NCBI GenBank assembly: GCA_947442255.1
Contig: CANEVO010000030.1
Span: forward strand, 1-38,093
Direction: 5' to 3'
Length of the DNA stretch: 38,093 nucleotides
Origin: Opitutia bacterium
GTDB taxonomy: Bacteria > Verrucomicrobiota > Verrucomicrobiae > Opitutales > Opitutaceae
Shown here in pieces: positions 15,821 to 27,003 of the stretch. The position numbers and the translations under genes were made by a program. Under the pieces are notes generated by a model. The model worked only from the letters and a program-made list of their open reading frames with translations. It searched no databases and had not been told where the DNA came from. Within the stretch, counting starts at the first letter, position 1; each line of letters opens with the position of its first letter.

Positions 15821-16474
15821 ATGTCGAAGCTTTTTCCTAAGTCGGCGAACAAGCTCCCGCTCCAGATCGTAATCTACCTTGCGGTGCTCGGCAGCATCGC
15901 GACCGCGGGGGTTACGTATTACATGACGCCGAAATACACCCGCGTCGGGTATGCGCCCGTGCAGCCGGTGCCTTTCAGTCACGCCCAGCACGTCAAGGAG
16001 ATCGGCCTCGATTGCCGTTATTGCCACTCGAACGTCGACAAATCCGGCCATTCCAATGTGCCGACCTCGCAGACGTGCATGAATTGCCACTCGATCATCA
16101 AGGCTAATTCGGCGCTGCTTGCCCCCGTGCGGGAAAGCTTTGCGAAGGGCACCCCGGTGCCGTGGGTTTGGATTCACGCGACGCCCGATTACGCCTTCTT
16201 CAACCACGCCGTCCACGTGAACCGCGGCGTTTCCTGTGTGGAATGCCACGGCAAGGTGAACGAGATGGACACCGTGACCCACATGCAGCCGCTCAGTATG
16301 GGCTTTTGCCTTGAGTGCCATCGTGATCCGGCCTCCCGGCTGCGTGATCCGAAAGACGTGTTTAACCTCGATTCCAAGCGGCTCGTCGACCAGGGCCGCC
16401 AGGCGGACGCGGCGAAGTTCGTCCACGATTGGAAAGTGATGCCTCCCCAGAGTTGCTCCGGCTGCCATCGATGA
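15821..16474 (+). CDS. actA: ACIII subunit ActA, pentahaem cytochrome c
   Basis: A 217-residue multihaem cytochrome that carries electrons on the periplasmic side of alternative complex III. One N-terminal membrane helix (about 14-33, LQIVIYLAVLGSIATAGVTY) anchors it. Five CxxCH motifs are present: CRYCH, CMNCH, CVECH, CLECH and CSGCH, exactly the pentahaem complement known for ActA. Several further histidines (FSHAQHVKEIG, FNHAVHVNRG) fit bis-His ligation. The fold resembles the cytochrome c7/NrfB-like group found in this family. It overlaps actB as ATGA, so the two are translationally coupled. It starts the canonical act operon, whose product oxidises menaquinol or ubiquinol and reduces cytochrome c or an oxidase. 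Confidence 0.96.
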   Translation: MSKLFPKSANKLPLQIVIYLAVLGSIATAGVTYYMTPKYTRVGYAPVQPVPFSHAQHVKEIGLDCRYCHSNVDKSGHSNVPTSQTCMNCHSIIKANSALLAPVRESFAKGTPVPWVWIHATPDYAFFNHAVHVNRGVSCVECHGKVNEMDTVTHMQPLSMGFCLECHRDPASRLRDPKDVFNLDSKRLVDQGRQADAAKFVHDWKVMPPQSCSGCHR

Positions 16475-19400
16475 AACGCAAACTTGAACATCCCGCTCCG
16501 TCGGAACGCGAGCTGTCCGGTCCCAAATACTGGCGCAGCCTCGATGAGCTTGCGGCTACGCCCGGATTCAAGGCGCAGCTGGAACGTGAGTTCCCGGAAG
16601 GCGCGGACGAGCTGACCGGTTTTGACCGCCGCCACTTCATGAAGCTGATGGCGGCTTCGTTTGCCCTCGGTGGCGTGGGTCTGGCCGGCTGTCGCCGTCC
16701 GGAAAAGAACATTCTGCCCTACGGCAAATCGGTGGAAGGCGTGATCCCGGGCCTGCCGCAATATTACGCCACGGCGATGCCGTTGCGGAAGAGCGCGATC
16801 CCGTTGCTGGCGGAAACGCATCAGGGCCGCCCCACCAAGCTCGAAGGGAACCCAACCTATGCGCCGCACGGTGGCGCGGCCTCGCTGATGGCGCAGGCGT
16901 CCATCCTCGATCTATACGATCCGGATCGCGCCACGGCTCACACCAAGGGCGGCGCGGTTTTGAAGGCGGAAGCCGTCAATCAGCTGCTGGCCGGCATCAG
17001 CCAGAATTTCGGCGGCAATCAGGGATCCGGGCTGGCATTTCTAGCCGAGGAATCCGCCTCGCCGACGCGGGCGCGCGTGGTCGCGGCCCTGCGCCGCAAG
17101 TTCCCCCGGGCAGTCTGGGCGGAATATGAGCCGGTGATCGACGAGGCTCCGGCCGCTGCGGCTCAGGCCGTGTTTGGGGCGATTGTAAAGCCACTCTACC
17201 ATTTTGATAAGGCCCGCCGGATCGTTTCGATCGACGCGGATTTCCTGCAATCCGAGTCGGGCAGCCTTTACCACGCGCGGGCCTTTTCGAAGGGCCGCCG
17301 CGTGGCGAAGAAGGACGACCCGATGAACCGCCTCTACGTGGCGGAAAGCGGTCTGACGATTACCGGCAGCATGGCCGATCACCGCTTGCGGCTCGCGAGC
17401 AGCCACATGCTGGCCTTCGCCGCCGCCCTTGCGGTTGAGACGGTCGACGGTGCCCGTGAGATGCTTCAGTCTTTCGCACAGGGACTCGATGCCAGCCCGA
17501 AGTGGATCGAGGAATGTGCCACGGATCTGAAGGCCCATCGCGGGGAGTGTCTGGTGGTGGCCGGGGCGCATCTCCCGGTGCAGGTTCACGCGATCGTTTA
17601 TTCGATCAACGCGCTCTTGGGAAATATCGGCCGGACGGTCGATTTTGTTGCCGTTGATCCCTCCGGCGCCGCGGCAATTTCGGATCTCGCCGCGGTCATC
17701 AAAGGCGGGTCCGTCAAGACGCTTGTAATCTTGGGCGGCAACCCCGCCTACAACGCCCCGGCCGATCTCGACTGGCCGGCTTTGCAACGCTCGGTCGGTG
17801 AAGTCGTGCGTTTTGGCTATTATGCCGACGAGACGTCCGCGCTGGGTGGGACGCACCTCGCCGCGGCGCATTATCTCGAATCATGGGGCGATGCCCGGAC
17901 CGTCGATGGAACGATTGTTCCGGTGCAGCCGATGATCCTGCCGCTGTTTGGCGGACTGACGGAAATCGAAGTGCTGGCGCGTCTGGCCGGGGAAGAAAAA
18001 ACCGACCCCTACGAACTCGTGCGCACCACGATCAGCGGGTTGGCCGGCGGCGATGGCGACCGGGCGATGAGTCGCTTTCTGCACGACGGCGTGCTGGCGA
18101 AGTCCGCCTATTCCCCGGCACAGGTGGCGTTCAACCGCCAGTCGATGAGCACCCTGTTTCGGCAGCCCGCGACGGCGACGGCGGTGGCGCTCAGTGCCAA
18201 GAATCTCGAAGTTCGTTTCGTCGCCGATCACAAGATGGACGACGGCCGTTTCGCCAACAACGGCTGGCTGCAGGAATGCCCCGACCCCATCACGAAGATC
18301 TCGTGGGATAACGCGATTCTGGTCAGCCCGAAGCTGGCACGTGAACTCGGCATCGATCCCAAGGGAGCCCTCATCCAGGTGGCGCGGAAAGAGGAAGCGG
18401 AATTCTCGATGGGCAAGGAAAACGCGTTCGTCTTTGAGCTTTCGATCGGTGGGCGCAAGATCCGCGGCCCGGTGCATATCCAGCCCGGTCTTTCGAATTA
18501 CACGGTGATCGTGCCGCTCGGTTACGGCCGCACGCAAGTCGGTCACGTGGGCAAAGGGGCCGGCTTCAGCGCCTATCCGCTTCGCACCGCGGCCGCGATG
18601 CACGTGGCGACCGGTGCGACGCTGACGAAGACCGCAGCCCGCATGTTCCTGGCGAACACGCAGGAGCACTGGTCGATGGAAGGCCGTGAGATCATCCGCG
18701 AGGCGAATTTCGAAAAATCCGGGAAGAGCAACGGTAACAGTTACCAGGAAAATCCCGCCTTCGTGAATACGTTCGGGATGGAGTCGCATTCGCCGACGAT
18801 CCTGGGCGAATACGGCGAGAAAATGTCGCCCCAGCAGCGGGCCACGCTCGTCCCGCGCGGCAATTCGCTCTACGAGACCCCCACCTTTGATGGGCTTCAC
18901 CAGTGGGGCATGTCGATCGATCTCAACACCTGCATTGGCTGCAATGCGTGCGTGGTCGCCTGTCAGGCGGAAAACAACGTTCCGATTGTCGGCAAGGACC
19001 AGGTGCTGCGCGGCCGTGAGATGCACTGGCTGCGTATCGACCGTTACTATTCCACCGGCACCGCCGATGGCGGTGCCTTTGGCGGGGAAGGCAACCGCGA
19101 GTTGCCCGAGGATCCGCAGGTTTCGCTGCAGCCGATGGCCTGTGTCCATTGTGAACTTGCGCCGTGTGAAACGGTGTGCCCGGTCAACGCGACCGTGCAC
19201 GATGAGGAAGGCCTGAACGTCATGGCCTACAACCGTTGCATCGGCACCCGCTATTGCGCGAACAATTGTCCCTACAAGGTCCGCCGCTTCAATTTCTTCG
19301 ACTGGAATCAGCGTTCGCTTGATCAGCTTTACATGGGCCAGCTGGCGTCCTTCGGCATGCCGGAGCTCGTCAAGATGGTAAAGAATCCCGAGGTCTCCGT

Positions 19401-19851
19401 GCGCATGCGCGGGGTGATGGAAAAGTGCACCTATTGCGTGCAACGGATCCAGAACGGGAAGATCCAGCACAAGGTGAAGATGGCGCAGGCCGGAACGCCT
19501 GGTGACGTCATCGTCCCGGATGGCGCGATCCGGACCGCCTGCGAGCAGACCTGTCCCGTCGGTGCGATCACCTTTGGTAACATTCTTGATAAGGAAAGTG
19601 CCGTGATGAAGGCCAAGGATCGGGCACAAGACTACGCGGTGTTGGGGTATCTCAACACCCGTCCGCGCACGACTTATTCCGGCAAGCTGCGTAACCCGAA
19701 TCCGGCGATGCCCGATTACGAGTCGCTGCCGCTGAGCCGCATCGAATACAACAAGAAGAACGTTCCCGCCGGTCACGGTGCGGCCGCCGGACACGGCGCG
19801 GCCGGACCTGGCGCTCCGGCGCATGGTGCGGAAAAGAAGGGTGGGCACTAA
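16471..19851 (+). CDS. actB: ACIII subunit ActB, molybdopterin-oxidoreductase-like plus iron-sulfur protein
   Basis: A 1126-residue fusion typical of ActB. The start is ATG 16471, coupled to actA. A Tat-type signal follows an N-terminal extension: [18 protein letters not shown], then LAGC with a lipobox Cys74, so the protein is probably lipidated at the periplasmic face. Residues about 80-780 are a molybdopterin-oxidoreductase-like domain; ActB proteins of known structure lack the cofactor. The C-terminal part is a ferredoxin-like domain. Its motifs are [12 protein letters not shown] (from C821), [14 protein letters not shown] (from C891), [14 protein letters not shown] and [12 protein letters not shown] (from C986) with [10 protein letters not shown]. 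The Thr in CIGTRYC replaces a fourth Cys, consistent with three 4Fe-4S clusters and one 3Fe-4S cluster. The C-terminal tail is Gly/His/Ala-rich. Confidence 0.96.
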
Positions 19852-19914
19852 GCATGAATTCCCGCGCAATGCTTCCTGACGGTTGCGGCCTTGGGGCCGA
19901 ATCGCTTCACTTTA

Positions 19915-19949
19915 CCGGGCCGATAGGCCAAAACGCGCGCCCGGCTTTT
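19915..19949 (+). other. Possible attenuator hairpin between actB and actC
   Basis: In the 124-base gap between actB and actC, CCGGGC (19915-19920) can pair with GCCCGG (19939-19944), followed by CTTTT. A smaller hairpin, CGGCC-TTGG-GGCCG, lies just upstream at 19886-19899. The stem is only six base pairs and the T-tract short, so it would be a leaky terminator at best, or an mRNA-processing or stability element. actC carries its own strong GGAGG (19962-19966) nine bases before its ATG. Confidence 0.25.
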
Positions 19950-19975
19950 CCCCCTGTTTCCGGAGGACTTAGCTG

Positions 19976-21421
19976 ATGGCCCACACTTCTGAAAATGCAA
20001 TGGCGGCTCCGGCGATCTTGAACGAGGTCAACCCGGCGGTTTTACCGCGGGCGGTGCTGGTCCATAATAACCGCAGTTTCTCGTGGATCACCGAAAAAAT
20101 CTGCGGGATCATCGAAGGCAAGACCCCGGCTTGGTGGTGGGTATGCTTCGTTCTGGCGTGTTTCATCGCTTCTTTCACGGTTGGGGGCATCACCTACTTG
20201 GTGACCACGGGCGTCGGCGTGTGGGGCCATGCCAATCCGGTCAACTGGGCGTGGGACATCGTCAACTTCGTTTTCTGGATCGGTATCGGCCATGCCGGCA
20301 CATTGATTTCCGCCATCCTGTGTCTGCTGCGCCAGAAATGGCGCACCTCGATCAACCGTGCCGCCGAGGCCATGACCATCTTCGCGGTGGTCTGCGCCGC
20401 GATCTTTCCGGTCTTTCACGTCGGTCGTATTTGGTATGCGTGGTATCTCTTCCCGATTCCCAACTCGAATGTCATCTGGCAGAACTTCCGTTCCCCGCTC
20501 GAGTGGGACGTGTTTGCCGTTTCGACCTACGGCACGGTTTCAGTATTGTTCTGGTATATCGGGCTGATTCCCGACCTGGCGGTGTTGCGTGATCGCTTCT
20601 TCACGGCCGGTAACAAGTTTCGCTCCTTCCTCTACGGATTGTTCGCAATGGGTTGGCGCGGATCCAACCGCCACTGGAGCAATTACGAGATGGCCTACCT
20701 GATCCTGGCCGGCGTCTCGACGCCGCTGGTGCTCTCGGTGCACACGATCGTTTCGTTCGACTTCGCCGTCTCCCTGCTCCCCGGCTGGCATACGACGATC
20801 TTCCCGCCTTACTTCGTCGCCGGCGCCATTTTCTCCGGTTTCGGCATGGTGCTCACGCTCATGTTGCCGCTGCGCGCGATCTACCGCCTCGAGGACCTGA
20901 TCACGCAGTATCACATCGACTGCATGTGCAAGGTGACCTTGGCGACCGGCACGATCGTGGGCTACGCCTACGGTATCGAGTTCTTCATCGCGTGGTATGG
21001 CGCGAATCCCTACGAGGGTTTTGCGTTCATCAATCGCGCCTTCGGCCATTACGCGTGGGCTTACTGGATCATGATTTCGTGCAACGTGATCACGCCACAG
21101 TTCTTCTGGTTCAAGGCCGTGCGGGAAAATACCACGCTGGTTTGGGTGCTCTCCATTTTCGTGAATGTCGGCATGTGGTTCGAGCGCTTTGTGATCATCG
21201 TCACGTCGCTGGCCCGCGATTTCCTGCCTTCGAGCTGGGGTTACTATTCCCCGAGTGTGGTCGAGATCTTCACCTTCTTCGGCACCTTCGGCGTCTTTTC
21301 GGTGCTCTTCCTTCTGTTTATCCGTTTCCTCCCCATCATGCCGATGGCCGAGCTCAAAGCGGTGACTCCACAGGCGGACGTCCACGGTGGCCAAGACGCG
21401 AGCGTGGCGCACAAACACTGA
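19976..21421 (+). CDS. actC: ACIII subunit ActC, NrfD-like integral membrane protein
   Basis: A 481-residue polytopic membrane protein of the NrfD/PsrC family, expected to have ten helices and to carry the quinol site of ACIII. Typical segments include [47 protein letters not shown] (in parts), [20 protein letters not shown] and [31 protein letters not shown] and [15 protein letters not shown] are also strongly conserved in ActC. The start is decided by GGAGG nine bases upstream. The N-terminal cytoplasmic region includes [22 protein letters not shown]. It is followed six bases later by actD. ActC contacts the iron-sulfur domain of ActB in the known complexes. Confidence 0.96.
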
Positions 21422-21427
21422 TCGACC

Positions 21428-21961
21428 ATGGCTGCACCTTCCCACGGCCTGATCGCCACCTTCAACACGGCTCCCGAGCTGTACCACGCCGCGGAAAAAA
21501 TCCGCGACGCCGGTTACCGCCACTGGGACTGCATCACGCCCTTTCCCGTGCACGGGCTCGACAAAGCCATGGGGCTGCGGCGTTCGATTGTGCCGCGGAT
21601 CTCCCTGGCCGGCGGCATCGCCGGATTTTTCACCGGAATGACGATGATCTGGTGGACGGGTGCCTACGACTACAAGCTGATCGTTGGCGGCAAACCGCTG
21701 TTCAGCCCGATGTTCGCCTTCCCGGTGAGCTACGAGCTCACGATTTTGTTCACCGCCTTTGCGACGATCATCGGCATGTTCATCGTGAACGGACTGCCGA
21801 TGCACTATCATCCCGTGCTCAAGTATGACCAGATCCGGCGAGGGATGGACGACACCTTCTTCATCGTGATCGAGGCGCGTGACCCGCGTTTCAATTCCGC
21901 CAACACCAAGGCCCTGCTCGAAACGGTCGGCGGGACCAACATCTCGGAGCTCGAGGCCTGA
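21428..21961 (+). CDS. actD: ACIII subunit ActD (DUF3341)
   Basis: A 177-residue two-helix membrane subunit. The N-terminal cytoplasmic domain opens with HGLIATFNTAPELYHAAEKI, then RHWDCITPFPVHGLDKAMGL, the DUF3341 hallmark. Two hydrophobic helices follow (about 60-80 and 100-125), separated by the conserved loop GGKPLFSPMFAFPVSYELT. The C-terminal part has DDTFFIVIEARDPRFN, again characteristic. ActD is a structural subunit beside ActC and ActF with no cofactor. It sits in its canonical position, six bases after actC and three bases before actE. Confidence 0.95.
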   Translation: MAAPSHGLIATFNTAPELYHAAEKIRDAGYRHWDCITPFPVHGLDKAMGLRRSIVPRISLAGGIAGFFTGMTMIWWTGAYDYKLIVGGKPLFSPMFAFPVSYELTILFTAFATIIGMFIVNGLPMHYHPVLKYDQIRRGMDDTFFIVIEARDPRFNSANTKALLETVGGTNISELEA

Positions 21962-21964
21962 GCC

Positions 21965-22603
21965 ATGCGCAACGTCTACCTCGTCACCCTGTTCGTTTGC
22001 GTGCTGCTGGTCTCGATTCTGGGCCTGCGGGGCCGGATTTTCACCGCGCCGCCAATGGATGTTTTCCCGGAGTGGGCCTTTCCCGGCATGAAGTATCAGC
22101 CGAAGTTGCGCCCGCAGTCGCACAGCGACTTTTTCGCCGATGGCCGCGCGGACCGGATGCCGGTCGCGCGCACCGTCGCCCGCGGCATGCTCCGCGAGGA
22201 CGATGGACTTTACGCGGGCAAGGATTCCTCCGGCCAGTTTGCCCGTGGATTTCCCGTGGCGATCACGGTCGACTCCAAGCTGCTGGAACGCGGGCGTGAC
22301 CGCTTTGAAATCTATTGTGCGCCTTGTCACGGGGCACTCGGCGACGGCAATGGCATCACCAAGCGCTACGGCATGGGCGCGACGCCGTCTTATCACGACG
22401 ACCGGATTCGCAATCTACCGGAAGGTGACATTTTCAATACGATCACGAACGGCAAGAACACCATGATGCCTTACGCCGACATGCTCGTGCCCGAGGATCG
22501 CTGGGCCGTGGTCGCCTACGTGCGGGCCCTTCAGCGGGCACAACAAGGCAAGCCCGGAGACGTCACGGACGCCGCGGCGCGTCAGAAACTTGGCATTCAA
22601 TGA
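21965..22603 (+). CDS. actE: ACIII subunit ActE, monohaem cytochrome c
   Basis: A 212-residue membrane-anchored monohaem cytochrome c that takes electrons from ActA and passes them on to an oxidase or soluble carrier. The N-terminal hydrophobic stretch YLVTLFVCVLLVSILGL serves as anchor or signal; I see no clear lipobox. DVFPEWAFPGMKYQPKLRPQ is the typical ActE segment after the anchor. The single haem motif is CAPCH in the middle of the protein, and the axial methionine is likely in NTMMPYADM. DRWAVVAYVRALQ is the usual C-terminal cytochrome c helix. The stop overlaps the actF start as ATGA. Confidence 0.95.
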   Translation: MRNVYLVTLFVCVLLVSILGLRGRIFTAPPMDVFPEWAFPGMKYQPKLRPQSHSDFFADGRADRMPVARTVARGMLREDDGLYAGKDSSGQFARGFPVAITVDSKLLERGRDRFEIYCAPCHGALGDGNGITKRYGMGATPSYHDDRIRNLPEGDIFNTITNGKNTMMPYADMLVPEDRWAVVAYVRALQRAQQGKPGDVTDAAARQKLGIQ

Positions 22604-23880
22604 GCTCTCACGCTGCAACTGTATCCGCTGCCGGCGTCCCCGCCGAGCAATCGTCCGCCGCTCTGGCGGGCAAGGCGCTCACCATTGGCTTCGTGGGTCT
22701 CGCCCTGACCGCGGTCGGGCTCTTCGTTTCCGGAGCTTCGGCGGTCGCTTTGTCCTACCTCGTGGGACTCACCTATTGGACGGCGATCGCGATCGGCATG
22801 CTTCTGCTGATCTTCATCCACCACATCCTTGATGCCTCGTGGTCCGTGGTGATCCGCCGCCAGTGGGAACACGGCCTCGCCGCCTTCAAGTGGCTCGGGA
22901 TCCTGTTCCTCCCTCTGATTCTCGCCTCACTGTTTTACCAGCGCGACCTCATCTGGCCTTGGATGAATCCGGGCCACGAAATCCACGGTGGGCATACGGT
23001 CGGACAGGATCCACTCTATTTGAAGAAGGAGGGATTTCTGAACCTTAACGCCTTCGTCATCAGCACGGCGGCCTTTTTCCTCCTGTGGATGTGGTTGTCG
23101 GCGCGCCTGCGGAAAGCCTCGTTTTCCCAAGACAGTGACGGCGAATTGAAGTGGACGACGATGAACCGCAAGACCGCCGCGTTCGGCATTCCGATTGCAG
23201 CGCTCACGCTGACGGCGGCGGCAATTTTCTGGGTCAAGAGTCTCGAATACCACTGGTTCTCCACCATGTACGGGGTGTGGTTTTTCGCCAACTGCGTCCG
23301 CGGGGCGTTGGGTTGTGGCGTCTTGATCATGGTCTGGCTTTGGGGCCGCGGTGACTACAAGGGCATACTCAACAAGAATCACTTTCACAGCATCGGGATG
23401 CTGATGCTCGCCTTCACCGTGTTCTGGGCCTACGTGACCTTTTCGCAGTATTTCCTGATCTGGAATGCGAACGTTCCCGAGGAAACTTTTTGGTACAACC
23501 TCCGCGAAGTGAATCACGACGGTTCGCCCAACCAGTGGAAATGGGTCGGCATCTACGGCATCCTTTTCGGTCATTTCTTCATCCCGTTCTTTGCCCTGCT
23601 CTCCTACCGGTACAAGGTAACGCCGCACATCATCCGCCGGATCGCACTCTGGATTCTGTCGATCATCCTGCTCGACATGTGCTACAACATCCTGCCGGCG
23701 CTGAAGGATGCGCACGGTGACTCCCTGCCTTTCCTTTCGATCAATTTGCTCTGGGTAGCGACCTCGGTGGTCGGAGTGGGGGGCGTTTGCGTTTGGGCCT
23801 ACCTCCGCAGCTTCCCGACGGCGAAACTCATTCCGATCCGTGACCCGCGCATCGGCGAAAGCCTCACGCACCATGAGTGA
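22600..23880 (+). CDS. actF: ACIII subunit ActF, NrfD-related integral membrane protein
   Basis: A 426-residue polytopic membrane protein, homologous to ActC and expected to have about ten helices. Family markers are GLTYWTAIAIGMLLLIFIHH, WSVVIRRQWEHGLAAFKWLG, DLIWPWMNPGHEIHGGH and KEGFLNLNAFVISTAAFFLL. HSIGMLMLAFTVFWAYVTFS and QYFLIWNANVPEETFWY form the highly conserved core. ActF is thought to help build the quinol-side or proton-conducting half of ACIII. It overlaps actE at its start (ATGA) and the next small gene by eight bases at its end. No frame or length anomaly. Confidence 0.95.
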   Translation: MSSHAATVSAAGVPAEQSSAALAGKALTIGFVGLALTAVGLFVSGASAVALSYLVGLTYWTAIAIGMLLLIFIHHILDASWSVVIRRQWEHGLAAFKWLGILFLPLILASLFYQRDLIWPWMNPGHEIHGGHTVGQDPLYLKKEGFLNLNAFVISTAAFFLLWMWLSARLRKASFSQDSDGELKWTTMNRKTAAFGIPIAALTLTAAAIFWVKSLEYHWFSTMYGVWFFANCVRGALGCGVLIMVWLWGRGDYKGILNKNHFHSIGMLMLAFTVFWAYVTFSQYFLIWNANVPEETFWYNLREVNHDGSPNQWKWVGIYGILFGHFFIPFFALLSYRYKVTPHIIRRIALWILSIILLDMCYNILPALKDAHGDSLPFLSINLLWVATSVVGVGGVCVWAYLRSFPTAKLIPIRDPRIGESLTHHE

Positions 23881-24202
23881 TCCGACCGCCAGTTCGCCTC
23901 GCCCGGTTTCGTTGCTCACGACCCTCTTCGTCCTCGCGCTCTTCGCCGCGTTCTTCTTCGTCGTGCGCCACTATTATCAGCCGGCCGGCACGGCGGCTTT
24001 TGTCGCGACTCCCGAGAACCTGACGAAGGAACTCGAATGGAAGGCCTCGCGGGCTTCGCGCCAAAAAACGCTTCAGGAGGCGCGCCAAACCGAAGCGGAT
24101 CGTGCCCGTGCTTATGGCTGGGTCGACCAAAAATCCGGCATCGTGCAACTGCCGATCGAGCGGGCGATGGAACTGACCGCGCAGCAACACGGCAAAAAAT
24201 AG
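23873..24202 (+). CDS. Small one-TM protein of the ACIII operon
   Basis: A 109-residue protein with one membrane helix (about 12-34, VSLLTTLFVLALFAAFFFVV) and a soluble tail. The tail has the charged stretch ARQTEADRARAYGWVDQKSG followed by IVQLPIERAMELTAQQ. This 'YGWVD...(G)(V)(V)xxPIxRAMEL' pattern recurs in small proteins encoded beside ACIII and caa3/cbb3 genes. It may stabilise the complex or tie it to an oxidase, comparable in position to the extra small subunit seen in some ACIII preparations. ATG 23873 is used because it overlaps the actF stop by eight bases and drops a non-hydrophobic extension. Function unproven. Confidence 0.75.
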   Translation: MSDPTASSPRPVSLLTTLFVLALFAAFFFVVRHYYQPAGTAAFVATPENLTKELEWKASRASRQKTLQEARQTEADRARAYGWVDQKSGIVQLPIERAMELTAQQHGKK

Positions 24203-24230
24203 CGATAACGCGCCTCCAATTTATCCCGAG

Positions 24231-25655
24231 ATGATCAACGCTCCGACCAATGGCGCTTCGGCCGAAGTTACCGCCGTCGACACCACCGCCCGCTGGCCCC
24301 TGCTCTTTTTGATCGGGTCCGGCATCGTCTGGCTGCTCGTCAGCGGTGTTCTCGCGCTCATCACTTCGATCCAATTGCATTCGCCCCAATTCATGGCGGA
24401 CTGTTCCTGGCTGACCCACGGCCGCGCCGTGGCGGAGCGTGAAACGGCCTTCGTTTACGGCTGGGCGGCGAACGCCGGGATCGCGATCGCGCTTTGGGTG
24501 CTGGCCCGGCTGGGCGGATCGCCGCTGCGAGGGACGAACTGGCTCTTCATCGGGACGCTGTTTTGGAATCTGGGTGTGGCGATTGGCCTCGTCGGCATCG
24601 CGACCGGAGACATGACGACCTTTGCGTTCCTGCAGCTTCCCGCCTACGTGCAGCCGCTGATGCTTTTTTCCTACGGTGCGATGGCGGTGGCCGGCGTGCT
24701 CGCCTGGTCGGGCCGCCGGGCGGATGGCACTTATGCCGCTCAATGGTATGCGGTGGCGGCGCTGTTCCTCTTTCCGTGGCTCTTCTCCGCGGCTCAGGTC
24801 GTTCTTCTGTGGGCGCCGGTTCGCGGAACGGTGCAGGCCGTAGCCGCCGGCTGGTTTGCGCAGGGGGCTTGGACGCTCTGGCTCGCCCCGCTCGCGCTGG
24901 CGGGTGCCTACTATGTTGTGCCCAAGGTCAGTGGGCGCGCGCTTCGCAGTTACGACTTCGCCTCTCTGGGATTTTGGACGCTGATTACGGTTGGCGCCTG
25001 GTCGGGTGGACGGCACCTGATCGGTGGACCGGTGCCCGCTTGGGTCGCCACCATGGCGGTGGCGAGTTGCTCGCTCCTCGTTGGGCACTACTTGATTGTA
25101 TTTCTCAATTTGCGCGGCGCCGTTGGAGCTGGTGGCACGGCGCTCAACTTCATCACGTTCGGATTGGTCGCTTACACCCTGGGCGGCCTGCTCGACTCGA
25201 TCACGGCATTCCGTGAAATCGCGCTGCAAACCCAGTTTACGCTGGTCTCCAGCGCCCAGCAGGAACTCGCGCTCCACGGCGCCCTATCGATGATGCTGTT
25301 CGGCACGATCTACTACATGGTGCCCCGTCTCACCGACCGGCCATGGGCCTCGGCCGGATTTATCGGGGCACACCGTTGGCTCGCCACCGGCGGCGTGCTT
25401 CTGCTCGTCCTCGCGCTGGCGATTGGCGGCTGGATGCAGGGGGCCGACCTGCTGGCGCCCAAGACGTCCTTCGCCGCCATTCATGGCCATTTGAAACTTC
25501 CCCTGCTCGCGGTCACGGCCGCCTATGGCTTGCTGCTGGCGGGCAACATCCTGTTGTTGGTTAATTTCCTCCGGAGCGCGTGCGTCGGTGGCTCGACCAC
25601 GGTAACGGTCACGCCCTTCCGCCAGCCCTTGAACATGGAAGCGACTGCGCCATGA
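24231..25655 (+). CDS. CcoN-like subunit lacking most haem and CuB ligands
   Basis: A 474-residue polytopic protein that aligns along its length with CcoN, the catalytic subunit of cbb3 oxidase: AYYVVPKVSGRALRSYDFAS matches the segment after TM6, FWTLITVGAWSGGRHL matches TM7, and IYYMVPRL follows TM10. Against Pseudomonas stutzeri CcoN, recalled from memory, the ligands are replaced. His60 becomes Arg70 (HGRAVAERETAFVYGWAANA), His207 becomes Gln211 (WFAQGAW), Tyr251 becomes Gly255, and His257 becomes Arg261; only the His258 equivalent, His262, remains. The HxH pair 345/347 becomes Gln343/Glu345 in an ungapped match. Canonical haem b, b3 and CuB binding is therefore not possible. The gene is otherwise intact, begins 28 bases after the previous gene and is coupled by ATGA to the CcoO-like gene. 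I infer a structural or electron-conduit partner of ACIII. Confidence 0.88.
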   Translation: MINAPTNGASAEVTAVDTTARWPLLFLIGSGIVWLLVSGVLALITSIQLHSPQFMADCSWLTHGRAVAERETAFVYGWAANAGIAIALWVLARLGGSPLRGTNWLFIGTLFWNLGVAIGLVGIATGDMTTFAFLQLPAYVQPLMLFSYGAMAVAGVLAWSGRRADGTYAAQWYAVAALFLFPWLFSAAQVVLLWAPVRGTVQAVAAGWFAQGAWTLWLAPLALAGAYYVVPKVSGRALRSYDFASLGFWTLITVGAWSGGRHLIGGPVPAWVATMAVASCSLLVGHYLIVFLNLRGAVGAGGTALNFITFGLVAYTLGGLLDSITAFREIALQTQFTLVSSAQQELALHGALSMMLFGTIYYMVPRLTDRPWASAGFIGAHRWLATGGVLLLVLALAIGGWMQGADLLAPKTSFAAIHGHLKLPLLAVTAAYGLLLAGNILLLVNFLRSACVGGSTTVTVTPFRQPLNMEATAP

Positions 25656-26338
25656 AAAACGGACCGCTTTTTCTGATCGGCCTCTTTATCGCGCTCGTGC
25701 TTTCATGGGCGGGCTTGGTGCTGGGCTCCCATGTCCAGTTCGGCGCCTTGACGCCTTATTATGATGACACCGAGGGCGCGTCGTTTCCCTCGCGTTCGTC
25801 CGGCATCGCCGCCCGCGGCCAGTTTGTTTACGCTGATCTGGGGTGCGCCGCCTGCCATACCCAGCAGGTGCGCCGGCCCGATTTTGGCAGCGATCAGGCC
25901 CGGGGTTGGGGCGAACGCCAAAGTGTCGCCCGTGACTACATCTTCCAATCCCGGCCGCAACTGGGGGCATCGCGCCTCGGGCCGGATCTGACCAATCTCG
26001 CCGGTCGCAAGCCCTCCGCGCCCGATGCCGAGGATCTGATGAAGCTGCTTTACGCCGGTTCCGGACTCCACCCGGCCTACAAATTCCTGTTCGATGAACG
26101 TGAAATCGTCGGGCAGCGGTCCGACAAAGCACTGACTCTTTCCGGTAAACTTGCCCCGCCGGCCGGCCGGGAAATTGTCGCCACGGAGCGCGCCCAGAGT
26201 CTCGTCGCCTATTTGCTGAGTTTGAACAACGGCTACGACTATCCAGAATCCCGTCCGCTGCCGAAACCCGCCGCTGGCGGCCATGGTGGTACGACGGCAA
26301 AGCATGGTGAAACGAAGATGCCGGAGGGAAAGAAATGA
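25652..26338 (+). CDS. CcoO-like membrane-anchored monohaem cytochrome c
   Basis: A 228-residue homologue of CcoO (FixO), the monohaem subunit of cbb3 oxidase. It has an N-terminal membrane anchor (about 5-25, PLFLIGLFIALVLSWAGLVL). The haem motif is CAACH (Cys65, Cys68, His69) in GCAACHTQQVRRPDFGSDQ, and SVARDYIFQSRPQLGASRLG with PDLTNLAGR matches the CcoO core. In CcoO the sixth ligand is the Met of a ..SxMPxYxWL segment. Here that segment reads GSGLHPAYKFLF, with His140 in the Met position, so the haem may be bis-His and of lower potential. The tail is Gly/His/Lys-rich. ATG 25652 is chosen for its ATGA overlap with the CcoN-like stop. It also overlaps the next gene by four bases. Confidence 0.88.
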   Translation: MKNGPLFLIGLFIALVLSWAGLVLGSHVQFGALTPYYDDTEGASFPSRSSGIAARGQFVYADLGCAACHTQQVRRPDFGSDQARGWGERQSVARDYIFQSRPQLGASRLGPDLTNLAGRKPSAPDAEDLMKLLYAGSGLHPAYKFLFDEREIVGQRSDKALTLSGKLAPPAGREIVATERAQSLVAYLLSLNNGYDYPESRPLPKPAAGGHGGTTAKHGETKMPEGKK

Positions 26339-27003
26339 GCACGCCCCCGAATTCCGATCCTCGGCTCGATCAAGCGGCTGTCACCGACGACAGTCTGCTT
26401 GCGGCGCACGAAAAACTCGCTGGCAAGCAGCCCGATGAGCAGGGGCGCTACCGTTTGATGCCGCTGAGCCTGCTGTTCATTTTTAGCGGGCTCATTTTTT
26501 TCGCCGGCACGTACCTCGGGCATTACTCGGGCGATTTTGATGCGCATGTCTTCGATGAGCATGGCCACGCCAGCAAGGGCGGCGCGGCCGCCGCTCCCGC
26601 CGCCAATCCGATCGAGGTTGGGAAAAAGGCGTTCAACAACGCTTCCTGTAACACCTGTCACCAATCGACCGGATTGGGCGCACCGGGAGCGATTCCTCCC
26701 CTTGTGGCCTCGGAATGGGTCACGGGTTCGGAAGAACGCCTGATTCGCATCGTGCTTTATGGGTTGCAGGGCCCCATCAAGGTCAACGGAACCGATTATA
26801 ACTCGGCCATGCCGGCCTTCGGCAAGGTGGCCGGTTCAGGCTTTAATTGGACGGACGATCGGATCGCCGCGACCCTGACCTATATTCGGCAGGAATGGGG
26901 CAACCAGGCTGGACCGGTCACCCCACAAAAAGTCACCGAGATCCGCACCAAGGAAGGCGACCGCAAGGCCTTCACCGCCGAAGAACTCCTCAAGCTTCCC
27001 TGA
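26335..27003 (+). CDS. Membrane-anchored monohaem cytochrome c (CcoP-like position)
   Basis: A 222-residue c-type cytochrome, third gene of the CcoNO-like group and last gene of the operon. A cytoplasmic N-terminus with GKQPDEQGRYRLMPLSLLFI leads into one membrane helix (about 43-61). A Gly/Ala-rich linker follows, then a single cytochrome domain with CNTCH (Cys105, Cys108, His109) and axial Met159 in NSAMPAFG. WTDDRIAATLTYIRQEWGN is the typical C-terminal helix. True CcoP has two haems, so this is half of one in cofactor content. It could receive electrons from ActE or the CcoO-like protein and hand them to a terminal oxidase. It starts with an ATGA overlap and is followed by a strong terminator. 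Confidence 0.9.
   Translation: MSTPPNSDPRLDQAAVTDDSLLAAHEKLAGKQPDEQGRYRLMPLSLLFIFSGLIFFAGTYLGHYSGDFDAHVFDEHGHASKGGAAAAPAANPIEVGKKAFNNASCNTCHQSTGLGAPGAIPPLVASEWVTGSEERLIRIVLYGLQGPIKVNGTDYNSAMPAFGKVAGSGFNWTDDRIAATLTYIRQEWGNQAGPVTPQKVTEIRTKEGDRKAFTAEELLKLP

Follow-up and report, generated by a model that had tools for sequence, protein, structure and literature searches.

Introduction

Genes for C-type (cbb3-type) oxidases have been described next to those for alternative complex III (ACIII) in the Verrucomicrobiota. In the part of a review that deals with these operons, a C-type oxidase with ACIII is reported only for verrucomicrobial methanotrophs and Opitutaceae, Refojo et al. 2010 is cited for C-type oxidases beside ACIII, and a cbb3-type oxidase is listed for the methanotrophs, with the same gene order beside ACIII (PMC8498564). 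The relevant passage of the genome paper of Methylacidiphilum kamchatkense Kam1 likewise places the ACIII genes beside a cbb3-type oxidase, deemed in line with a high oxygen affinity (PMC6688271), and for strain IT6 the corresponding passage has aa3- and cbb3-type genes adjoining ACIII (PMC11102522). Here, we analyse an ACIII operon of an Opitutia bacterium of the family Opitutaceae (assembly GCA_947442255.1, contig CANEVO010000030.1, positions 1 to 38,093 of the forward strand; this whole stretch of 38,093 nucleotides is called the window). Its homologue of CcoN, subunit I of cbb3-type oxidases, is named pseudo-CcoN below, as it has lost almost the entire set of residues for haem and copper.

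Results and discussion

Ligand residues of pseudo-CcoN

The pseudo-CcoN frame is free of stops over 474 amino acids. PF00115 matches the protein at 4.6e-31 (108.6 bits), placing it in the haem-copper oxidase subunit I fold, and the NCBIfam profile TIGR00780 (ccoN) matches at 4.4e-23 with 81.9 bits, below the equivalog cut-off of 583. This low ccoN score says little by itself, since an ACIII-linked CcoN with all its ligands (L060) also fails the cut-off, at 239.5 bits. Ligand columns were taken from profile and multiple alignments and read against 9G6B, 3MK7, 8SMR and 38 CcoN-type proteins with all seven residues. In pseudo-CcoN, His60 is replaced by Arg70, His207 by Gln211, Tyr251 by Gly255, His257 by Arg261, His345 by Gln343 and His347 by Glu345, and only His258 is left, as His262. 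With one of the six His ligands of the haems and copper B (CuB) kept, the protein does not qualify as a functional haem-copper oxidase. There is no HH motif, and the sole HxH (His418/His420) lies at another site. The initial annotation had described an open frame with the CcoN fold, the same seven residues and no HxH at the His345/His347 site, all of which agrees with this reading.

Gln211, Arg261 and, in place of the active-site Tyr, Gly255 are each present in 121 of 121 close relatives (window protein included), and His262 in 113. Because they are near-fixed across these relatives, the substitutions are not chance. Judged from these columns, pseudo-CcoN would be a subunit without metal.

Distribution and graded loss in the Verrucomicrobiota

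Sixty strong CcoN matches came from a profile search across 288 genomes that belong to the same phylum as an Opitutaceae metagenome-assembled genome. Four methanotroph loci from weaker matches and one locus found later (L138) bring this to 65 genomes, and the window to 66 loci (L and G numbers denote loci and genomes). Frames run from stop to stop in this survey, and some carry upstream residues (e.g. L057 and L062). The place in the ACIII operon, also part of the initial annotation, is constant: act genes lie within the fetched stretch at 65 of the 66 loci. The exception is L117, where the stretch stops short of them and ActD lies about 9 kb off in the same genome.

All seven residues are kept by the ACIII-linked CcoN of 21 of the 65 genomes, in the same operon slot ('intact'). 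Two copies (L083 and L084) keep the H60/H347 low-spin pair alone, the CuB, b3 and Tyr residues being gone, and are possible electron-transfer-only intermediates. More residues are lost in 42 genomes, the window being the 43rd lost case. As a control, the alignment included 17 further CcoN-type proteins, none of which has lost any of the seven residues; no act genes were seen in stretches of 5–15 kb beside 16 of them (L006 excluded). Among the lost copies, L086-L088 and L092-L103 retain H60, four of these also H207; L054-L056 and L059 retain H207; and the window's group (window, L045-L053), whose named members are Opitutaceae, mostly retains H258. Nine aligned intact ACIII-linked CcoN share 32–38% identity with the window protein. 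The repurposed scaffold had at first been presented without kin or history; in fact it has intact cbb3-type counterparts in the same operon position, and its loss is recurrent, as explained below. In protein searches, 212 of the 214 matches listed were ligandless (from the best 120 of 961 and the best 120 of 975), a share that gives no estimate of frequency, since the matches were sorted by similarity to queries that were themselves mostly ligandless. Named sources of relatives in these searches include the cultured Opitutaceae Cephaloticoccus primus and Horticoccus. A proteobacterial relative used as query against viral contigs gave no match.

Number of losses

With the ligand columns left out, the CcoN tree needs three changes between intact and non-intact, and its starred branches force three. 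The ActB+C+D tree, a quick one without mixture model and with 61 rows (L086-L088 omitted as they lack the genes, L117 and L138 absent), needs eight, of which starred branches force seven. One ancestral loss, with all 44 non-intact rows as a single clade, is rejected on the CcoN data by the approximately unbiased (AU) test (p-AU 0.003), and a single clade of a 21-row subset including L061 gives a p-AU of 0.012; both values are optimistic because the groups were defined with the tree already at hand. The placement of the long branches L081, L090, L091 and L104 is unsure, and L051 and L052 stand with the window's group on the CcoN tree and with intact rows on the Act tree. Possible reasons for the disagreement between the two trees are convergence, exchange of the CcoN-CcoO block, and long-branch attraction. 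As a minimum, the sequences suggest at least three changes between intact and non-intact. The tree itself does not give a direction, which is read as loss because CcoN-type proteins outside the ACIII operon are intact here. Together, alignments and trees establish, at the level of sequence, that pseudo-CcoN shares its origin with the intact CcoN of the same operon slot and that loss has been recurrent.

Selection on the ligandless copies

All 66 CcoN frames are open. The ratio of nonsynonymous to synonymous substitution rates (dN/dS) is 0.05–0.29 in 12 pairs of lost copies, which are not independent, as L113-L115, L086-L088, L054-L056 and the window recur. The low-spin-pair copies have a ratio of 0.11. 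For ActF it is 0.08–0.39 across the twelve lost pairs (L055 ActF compared on one of two pieces), and for intact copies 0.01–0.08 in the four of seven pairs with measurable dS. Constraint is thus relaxed a few-fold yet strong, and the lost copies are under purifying selection. Forty columns are fixed (at least 95%) in intact CcoN; of these, 19 are kept in the window's group, 23 in L054-L057 with L059 and L062, 21 in L086-L088 with L092-L103, and 10 in the methanotrophs. The homologues do not show the random scatter of a dying gene, and the substitutions are fixed across groups, in line with the initial view of a maintained gene.

Partner cytochromes

The next gene encodes a CcoO partner by PF02433 (37.3 bits, threshold 29.6); CcoO is found at all loci and cytochrome c at nearly all. 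All 65 CcoO-like proteins and all 63 third cytochromes that were detected retain the CXXCH motif. With one CXXCH the third gene does not code for a dihaem CcoP, and the third gene of intact loci, detected at 19 of them, likewise has a single CXXCH. A Met in the axial column of CcoO is the sixth haem ligand. This column holds Met at 21 of 21 intact, 2 of 2 low-spin-pair and 26 of 42 lost loci. At the other 16 lost loci it is His (window, L046, L047), Arg (L051, L052), Lys (L059), Cys (L093-L098, L100-L102) or Ala (L103), so that replacement is seen only where CcoN is ligandless. The third cytochrome keeps its axial Met in 62 of 63 cases, L084 being cut short at the site. The earlier statement that the partner cytochromes keep their haem motifs therefore stands for CXXCH and falls for the axial column of the window CcoO, where His140 is found. 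The haem of this CcoO has probably been retuned, His taking the place of the axial Met. Once the CcoN site was lost, the haem of CcoO could thus lose its usual ligand, whereas that of the third cytochrome could not, a pattern consistent with electrons having ceased to pass from CcoO to CcoN.

Verrucomicrobial methanotrophs

Four of the 13 genomes tested carry pmoB, and all four have a ligandless ACIII-linked CcoN (S, E, S, S, H, F and V at the seven columns; L113, L114, L115 and L117). L115 (G155) is Kam1, whose database protein was found letter for letter in the locus. The ACIII-adjacent copy of Kam1 retains the His258 equivalent only, and 'Ca. M. infernorum' (P0216) has the same ligand pattern. 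Methylacidiphilum copies hold 5–6 His in the whole protein and neither HH nor HxH. From its residues, the Kam1 subunit I is predicted to be unable to hold haems or CuB in the usual way. The six PF00115 proteins of G045, a close relative of Kam1, comprise, besides the ACIII-linked copy, two CtaD-type proteins, two shorter proteins that carry HH and HFH motifs and one that carries HH and HGH; none of these five exceeds 26 bits against the ccoN profile, and a second C-type subunit I was not seen. Since such proteins are mostly called 'cbb3-type subunit I' where the source names them, trait predictions made from annotation may credit genomes with a functional high-affinity oxidase which they do not have. 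These copies also bear on published physiology that counts them as a high-affinity oxidase.

Neighbouring oxidases and operons without CcoN

A COX1 gene starts 1.4–2.3 kb past the CcoN frame at 19 of the 42 lost loci (20 of 43 with L138, which stands outside the CcoN tree placement). COX3 and COX2 accompany it at 18 of the 19 and COX2 alone at L104; L085 has COX2 alone. The only COX1 typed, that of L114, fits CtaD/CoxA best among NCBIfam profiles (540 bits, below the cut-off of 671), and the neighbouring oxidase is called 'aa3-type' for this reason. These 19 loci fall within one 23-row clade (L083-L088, L092-L104, L113-L115, L117; support 92/90, not starred). Cox genes also occur at one intact locus (L089) and at neither low-spin-pair locus. 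Among genomes with a degenerate copy, a search of 39 lost and two low-spin-pair ones found a further PF00115 protein in every one of the 41 (lost genome G002 was covered by a separate search, G075 and G268 by neither), the ligands of these proteins being read for some. Two of the 21 intact genomes, both small (G149 and G004 with L066 and L067; 1.3 and 1.7 Mb), showed no other PF00115 match, and the CcoN linked to ACIII may be their sole haem-copper oxidase.

Strong ActD matches occur in 88 genomes, 24 of them without adjacent CcoN by the first search; another 13 genomes, whose ActD matches were weak (E 4e-9 to 1e-19), were set aside. Eighteen of the 24 loci were opened (G041, G096, G129, G160, G177 and G209 being left), of which one, L138, holds a ligandless CcoN. 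In the operons of the other 17, no CcoN, CcoO or third cytochrome was found, CcoO and the cytochrome being searched for with the window's own proteins. COX1 follows ActF in 14 of these 17; L145 reaches the contig end after ActF, and L136 has an intact CcoN on the other strand. The genes for CcoN, CcoO and the third cytochrome seem to be gained and lost together.

Proposed role and alternatives

Based on these sequence comparisons, pseudo-CcoN is probably the former subunit I of an ACIII-linked cbb3-type oxidase, now without catalytic activity and retained for a structural role. In an ancestral ACIII-cbb3 assembly, subunit I would have been docked on the membrane arm of ACIII. Oxygen chemistry would then have moved to another oxidase, aa3-type and directly downstream in one clade and encoded elsewhere in the window's group, while the twelve-helix CcoN body would have stayed as a platform or anchor holding CcoO and cytochrome c on ACIII. 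Electrons would exit ACIII via the c-haems to the other oxidase and not via haem b into pseudo-CcoN, cytochrome c being the likelier exit because its Met is kept. A retained docking body is plausible, as the fitted oxidase subunit I of Rhodothermus marinus adjoins ActC according to the pertinent part of the work on its ACIII (PMC5928083). More tentatively, and somewhat short of an even chance, ACIII might, across much of the Verrucomicrobiota, permanently include a metal-free oxidase body as a structural subunit. This body would have evolved repeatedly from an ACIII-bound cbb3 oxidase and would now carry c-cytochromes connecting ACIII with a different, true oxidase (an ACIII - pseudo-complex IV - complex IV assembly), with the CcoO haem retuned by exchange of its axial ligand.

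Several observations weigh against a structural role. Pseudo-CcoN evolves faster than intact CcoN, its constraint being partly relaxed, and the residual selection could serve another role such as ion conduction or assembly. The axial Met of CcoO is still present at most lost loci, which shows that it need not be replaced once the CcoN site is gone. The existence of ACIII operons that have no CcoN indicates that the subunit can be dispensable for ACIII in this phylum. No cox gene was found near the window's group in the stretch read, so any oxidase bridged to ACIII there would have to be encoded at another site in the genome. Finally, some partner genes appear split or short in the frames read (ActF of L055 and ActC of L115 in two pieces, a short ActA in L097), perhaps through frameshifts, sequencing errors or stretch effects.

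As an alternative, pseudo-CcoN could be an assembly or maturation factor that stabilises or matures CcoO or another oxidase. The cox genes directly downstream at 20 of the 43 lost loci speak for such a factor, as does the ligandless COX1-like protein of Acetobacter, encoded beside the assembly gene CtaB in the part of the report describing it, for which a role of this kind has been proposed (PMC10715153). It is nevertheless unlikely, as the fixed slot between act genes and CcoO, together with the translational coupling to CcoO, points to a subunit present in stoichiometric amounts, and no CtaB/UbiA-type family was found in the 20 window frames scanned, a part of the window's genes, with other loci outside the scan. 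Also doubtful, and ranked after it, is a cofactor-free ion-translocating module in which the CcoN body would move protons by conformational coupling, like the NrfD-type subunits of ACIII. ActC and ActF are proposed in the portion concerned of PMC5928083 to conduct protons without cofactors, and Tyr227 is kept in four of four lost groups examined, Tyr228, Pro231 and Trp249 in three of four; however, the methanotrophs keep only 10 of the 40 intact-fixed columns, and the kept residues may be structural.

It is very improbable that pseudo-CcoN is still a metal-dependent oxidase or haem protein with new ligands (His262, His286, His349, His381 or others). Besides the near-fixed His262, His286 and His381 are found in 121 of 121 close relatives. 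However, His381 is common to most intact CcoN, the His286 column is Pro in intact CcoN and is not His outside the window's group (L045-L053), and the Methylacidiphilum copies are poor in His. His349, named initially as the only nearby alternative ligand, is rejected, with His at position 349 in 4 of the 121 and Tyr in 113, and an active oxidase with shifted ligands was likewise rejected because of the conservation pattern. A decaying pseudogene or assembly error is hardly credible and was rejected: raised dN/dS and some long branches would fit it, but the ratio lies well under 1, all frames are open, large groups share the same fixed substitutions, and the named complete genome of Kam1 carries a ligandless copy.

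Organisation of the window operon

The operon runs on the + strand from 15821 to 27003 in the order ActA-ActB-ActC-ActD-ActE-ActF-small protein-CcoN type-CcoO-like-monohaem cytochrome c (Table 1). Both junctions downstream of pseudo-CcoN are ATGA overlaps, as expected from the translational coupling in the initial annotation. Proteins weakly similar to the small protein (orf7) were seen after ActF in some CcoN-less ACIII operons (L140, L141, L146, L150). In L086-L088 (G202, G190, G193), the stretches contain no act genes other than ActE and ActF, with which cox genes and those for CcoN, CcoO and cytochrome c are grouped; ActD is found on a different contig, so that the ACIII operon is split. 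A second ActD match lies inside a frame of about 700–790 amino acids in G045, G057, G075, G155 and G268, possibly a fused ACIII-like protein.

Table 1. Genes and ligand positions of the ACIII operon in the window
Feature	Position	Strand	Remarks
ActA, pentahaem c-type cytochrome of ACIII	15821..16474	+	5 CXXCH; Cytochrome_C7/QrcA-like; order matches relatives
ActB, Fe-S/molybdopterin-like subunit	16429..19851	+	Fer4 domains, QrcC/QrcB-like; TTG start mechanical, putative
ActC, NrfD-like membrane subunit	19976..21421	+	PF03916 4.5e-22
ActD	21428..21961	+	PF11821 4.4e-64
ActE, monohaem cytochrome c	21965..22603	+	PF13442 1.2e-13; one CXXCH
ActF	22600..23880	+	Named from position, conservation and operon order in relatives; no Pfam match
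Small protein, ~109 aa (orf7)	23873..24202	+	Between ActF and CcoN; no firm family
Ligandless CcoN-type subunit (pseudo-CcoN), 474 aa	24231..25655	+	
Arg70 codon, position of low-spin haem ligand His60	24438..24440	+	
Gln211 codon, position of CuB ligand His207	24861..24863	+	
Gly255 codon, position of cross-linked Tyr251	24993..24995	+	
Arg261-His262 codons, positions of CuB ligands His257-His258	25011..25016	+	Second alone kept
Gln343 and Glu345, positions of haem b3 ligand His345 and low-spin haem ligand His347	25257..25265	+	
CcoO-like membrane cytochrome c	25652..26338	+	PF02433 2.7e-9; ATGA overlap with pseudo-CcoN
CXXCH of CcoO-like protein, residues 65-69	25844..25858	+	
His140 of CcoO-like protein, axial Met column	26069..26071	+	
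Monohaem cytochrome c	26335..27003	+	PF00034 4.7e-8; ATGA overlap; CXXCH and axial-column Met159 kept

Comparison with known systems

In the published part on the 'deranged' COX1-like protein of Acetobacter, an oxidase subunit I homologue without any metal-binding residues is described and a structural role proposed (PMC10715153). The initial remark that no characterised example is known is therefore too strong. Like pseudo-CcoN, the Acetobacter protein is a ligandless subunit I homologue kept in a respiratory gene cluster; as described there, it differs in being linked to CtaB and not to ACIII, and in being COX1-like and not of the CcoN type. A ligandless CcoN in ACIII operons with a graded, repeated origin was not found in searches of the open-access literature. 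New are also the His of the window CcoO at the axial Met column of its intact relatives and the ligandless state of the ACIII-adjacent 'cbb3' of Kam1. A classifier paper reports that sequences without the six His were removed (PMC3084760), and a filter of this kind is a likely reason why ligandless proteins are missing from surveys. With intact, partly and fully ligandless copies in one operon position, the order and the consequences of active-site loss are directly testable.

Compared to CcoN of the C-type (cbb3) oxidase of Pseudomonas stutzeri (3MK7), pseudo-CcoN has the same fold, length and CcoO partner at about 20% identity, whereas six of the seven haem, CuB and Tyr residues are absent and the third gene encodes a monohaem cytochrome instead of the dihaem CcoP. 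The ACIII-(c)aa3 operons and supercomplexes of Flavobacterium johnsoniae and R. marinus (PMC8552683, PMC5928083) likewise have oxidase genes after the ACIII genes, and an oxidase is associated with ACIII, as is predicted for the subunits here; their oxidases are catalytic aa3/caa3 enzymes, and a CcoN-type subunit is not mentioned in the parts of these papers that describe them. The intact ACIII-linked CcoN of other Verrucomicrobiota (L060, L063-L080, L082, L089) share operon slot and partners with pseudo-CcoN and differ in having all seven residues and, in all 21 cases, the axial Met of CcoO.
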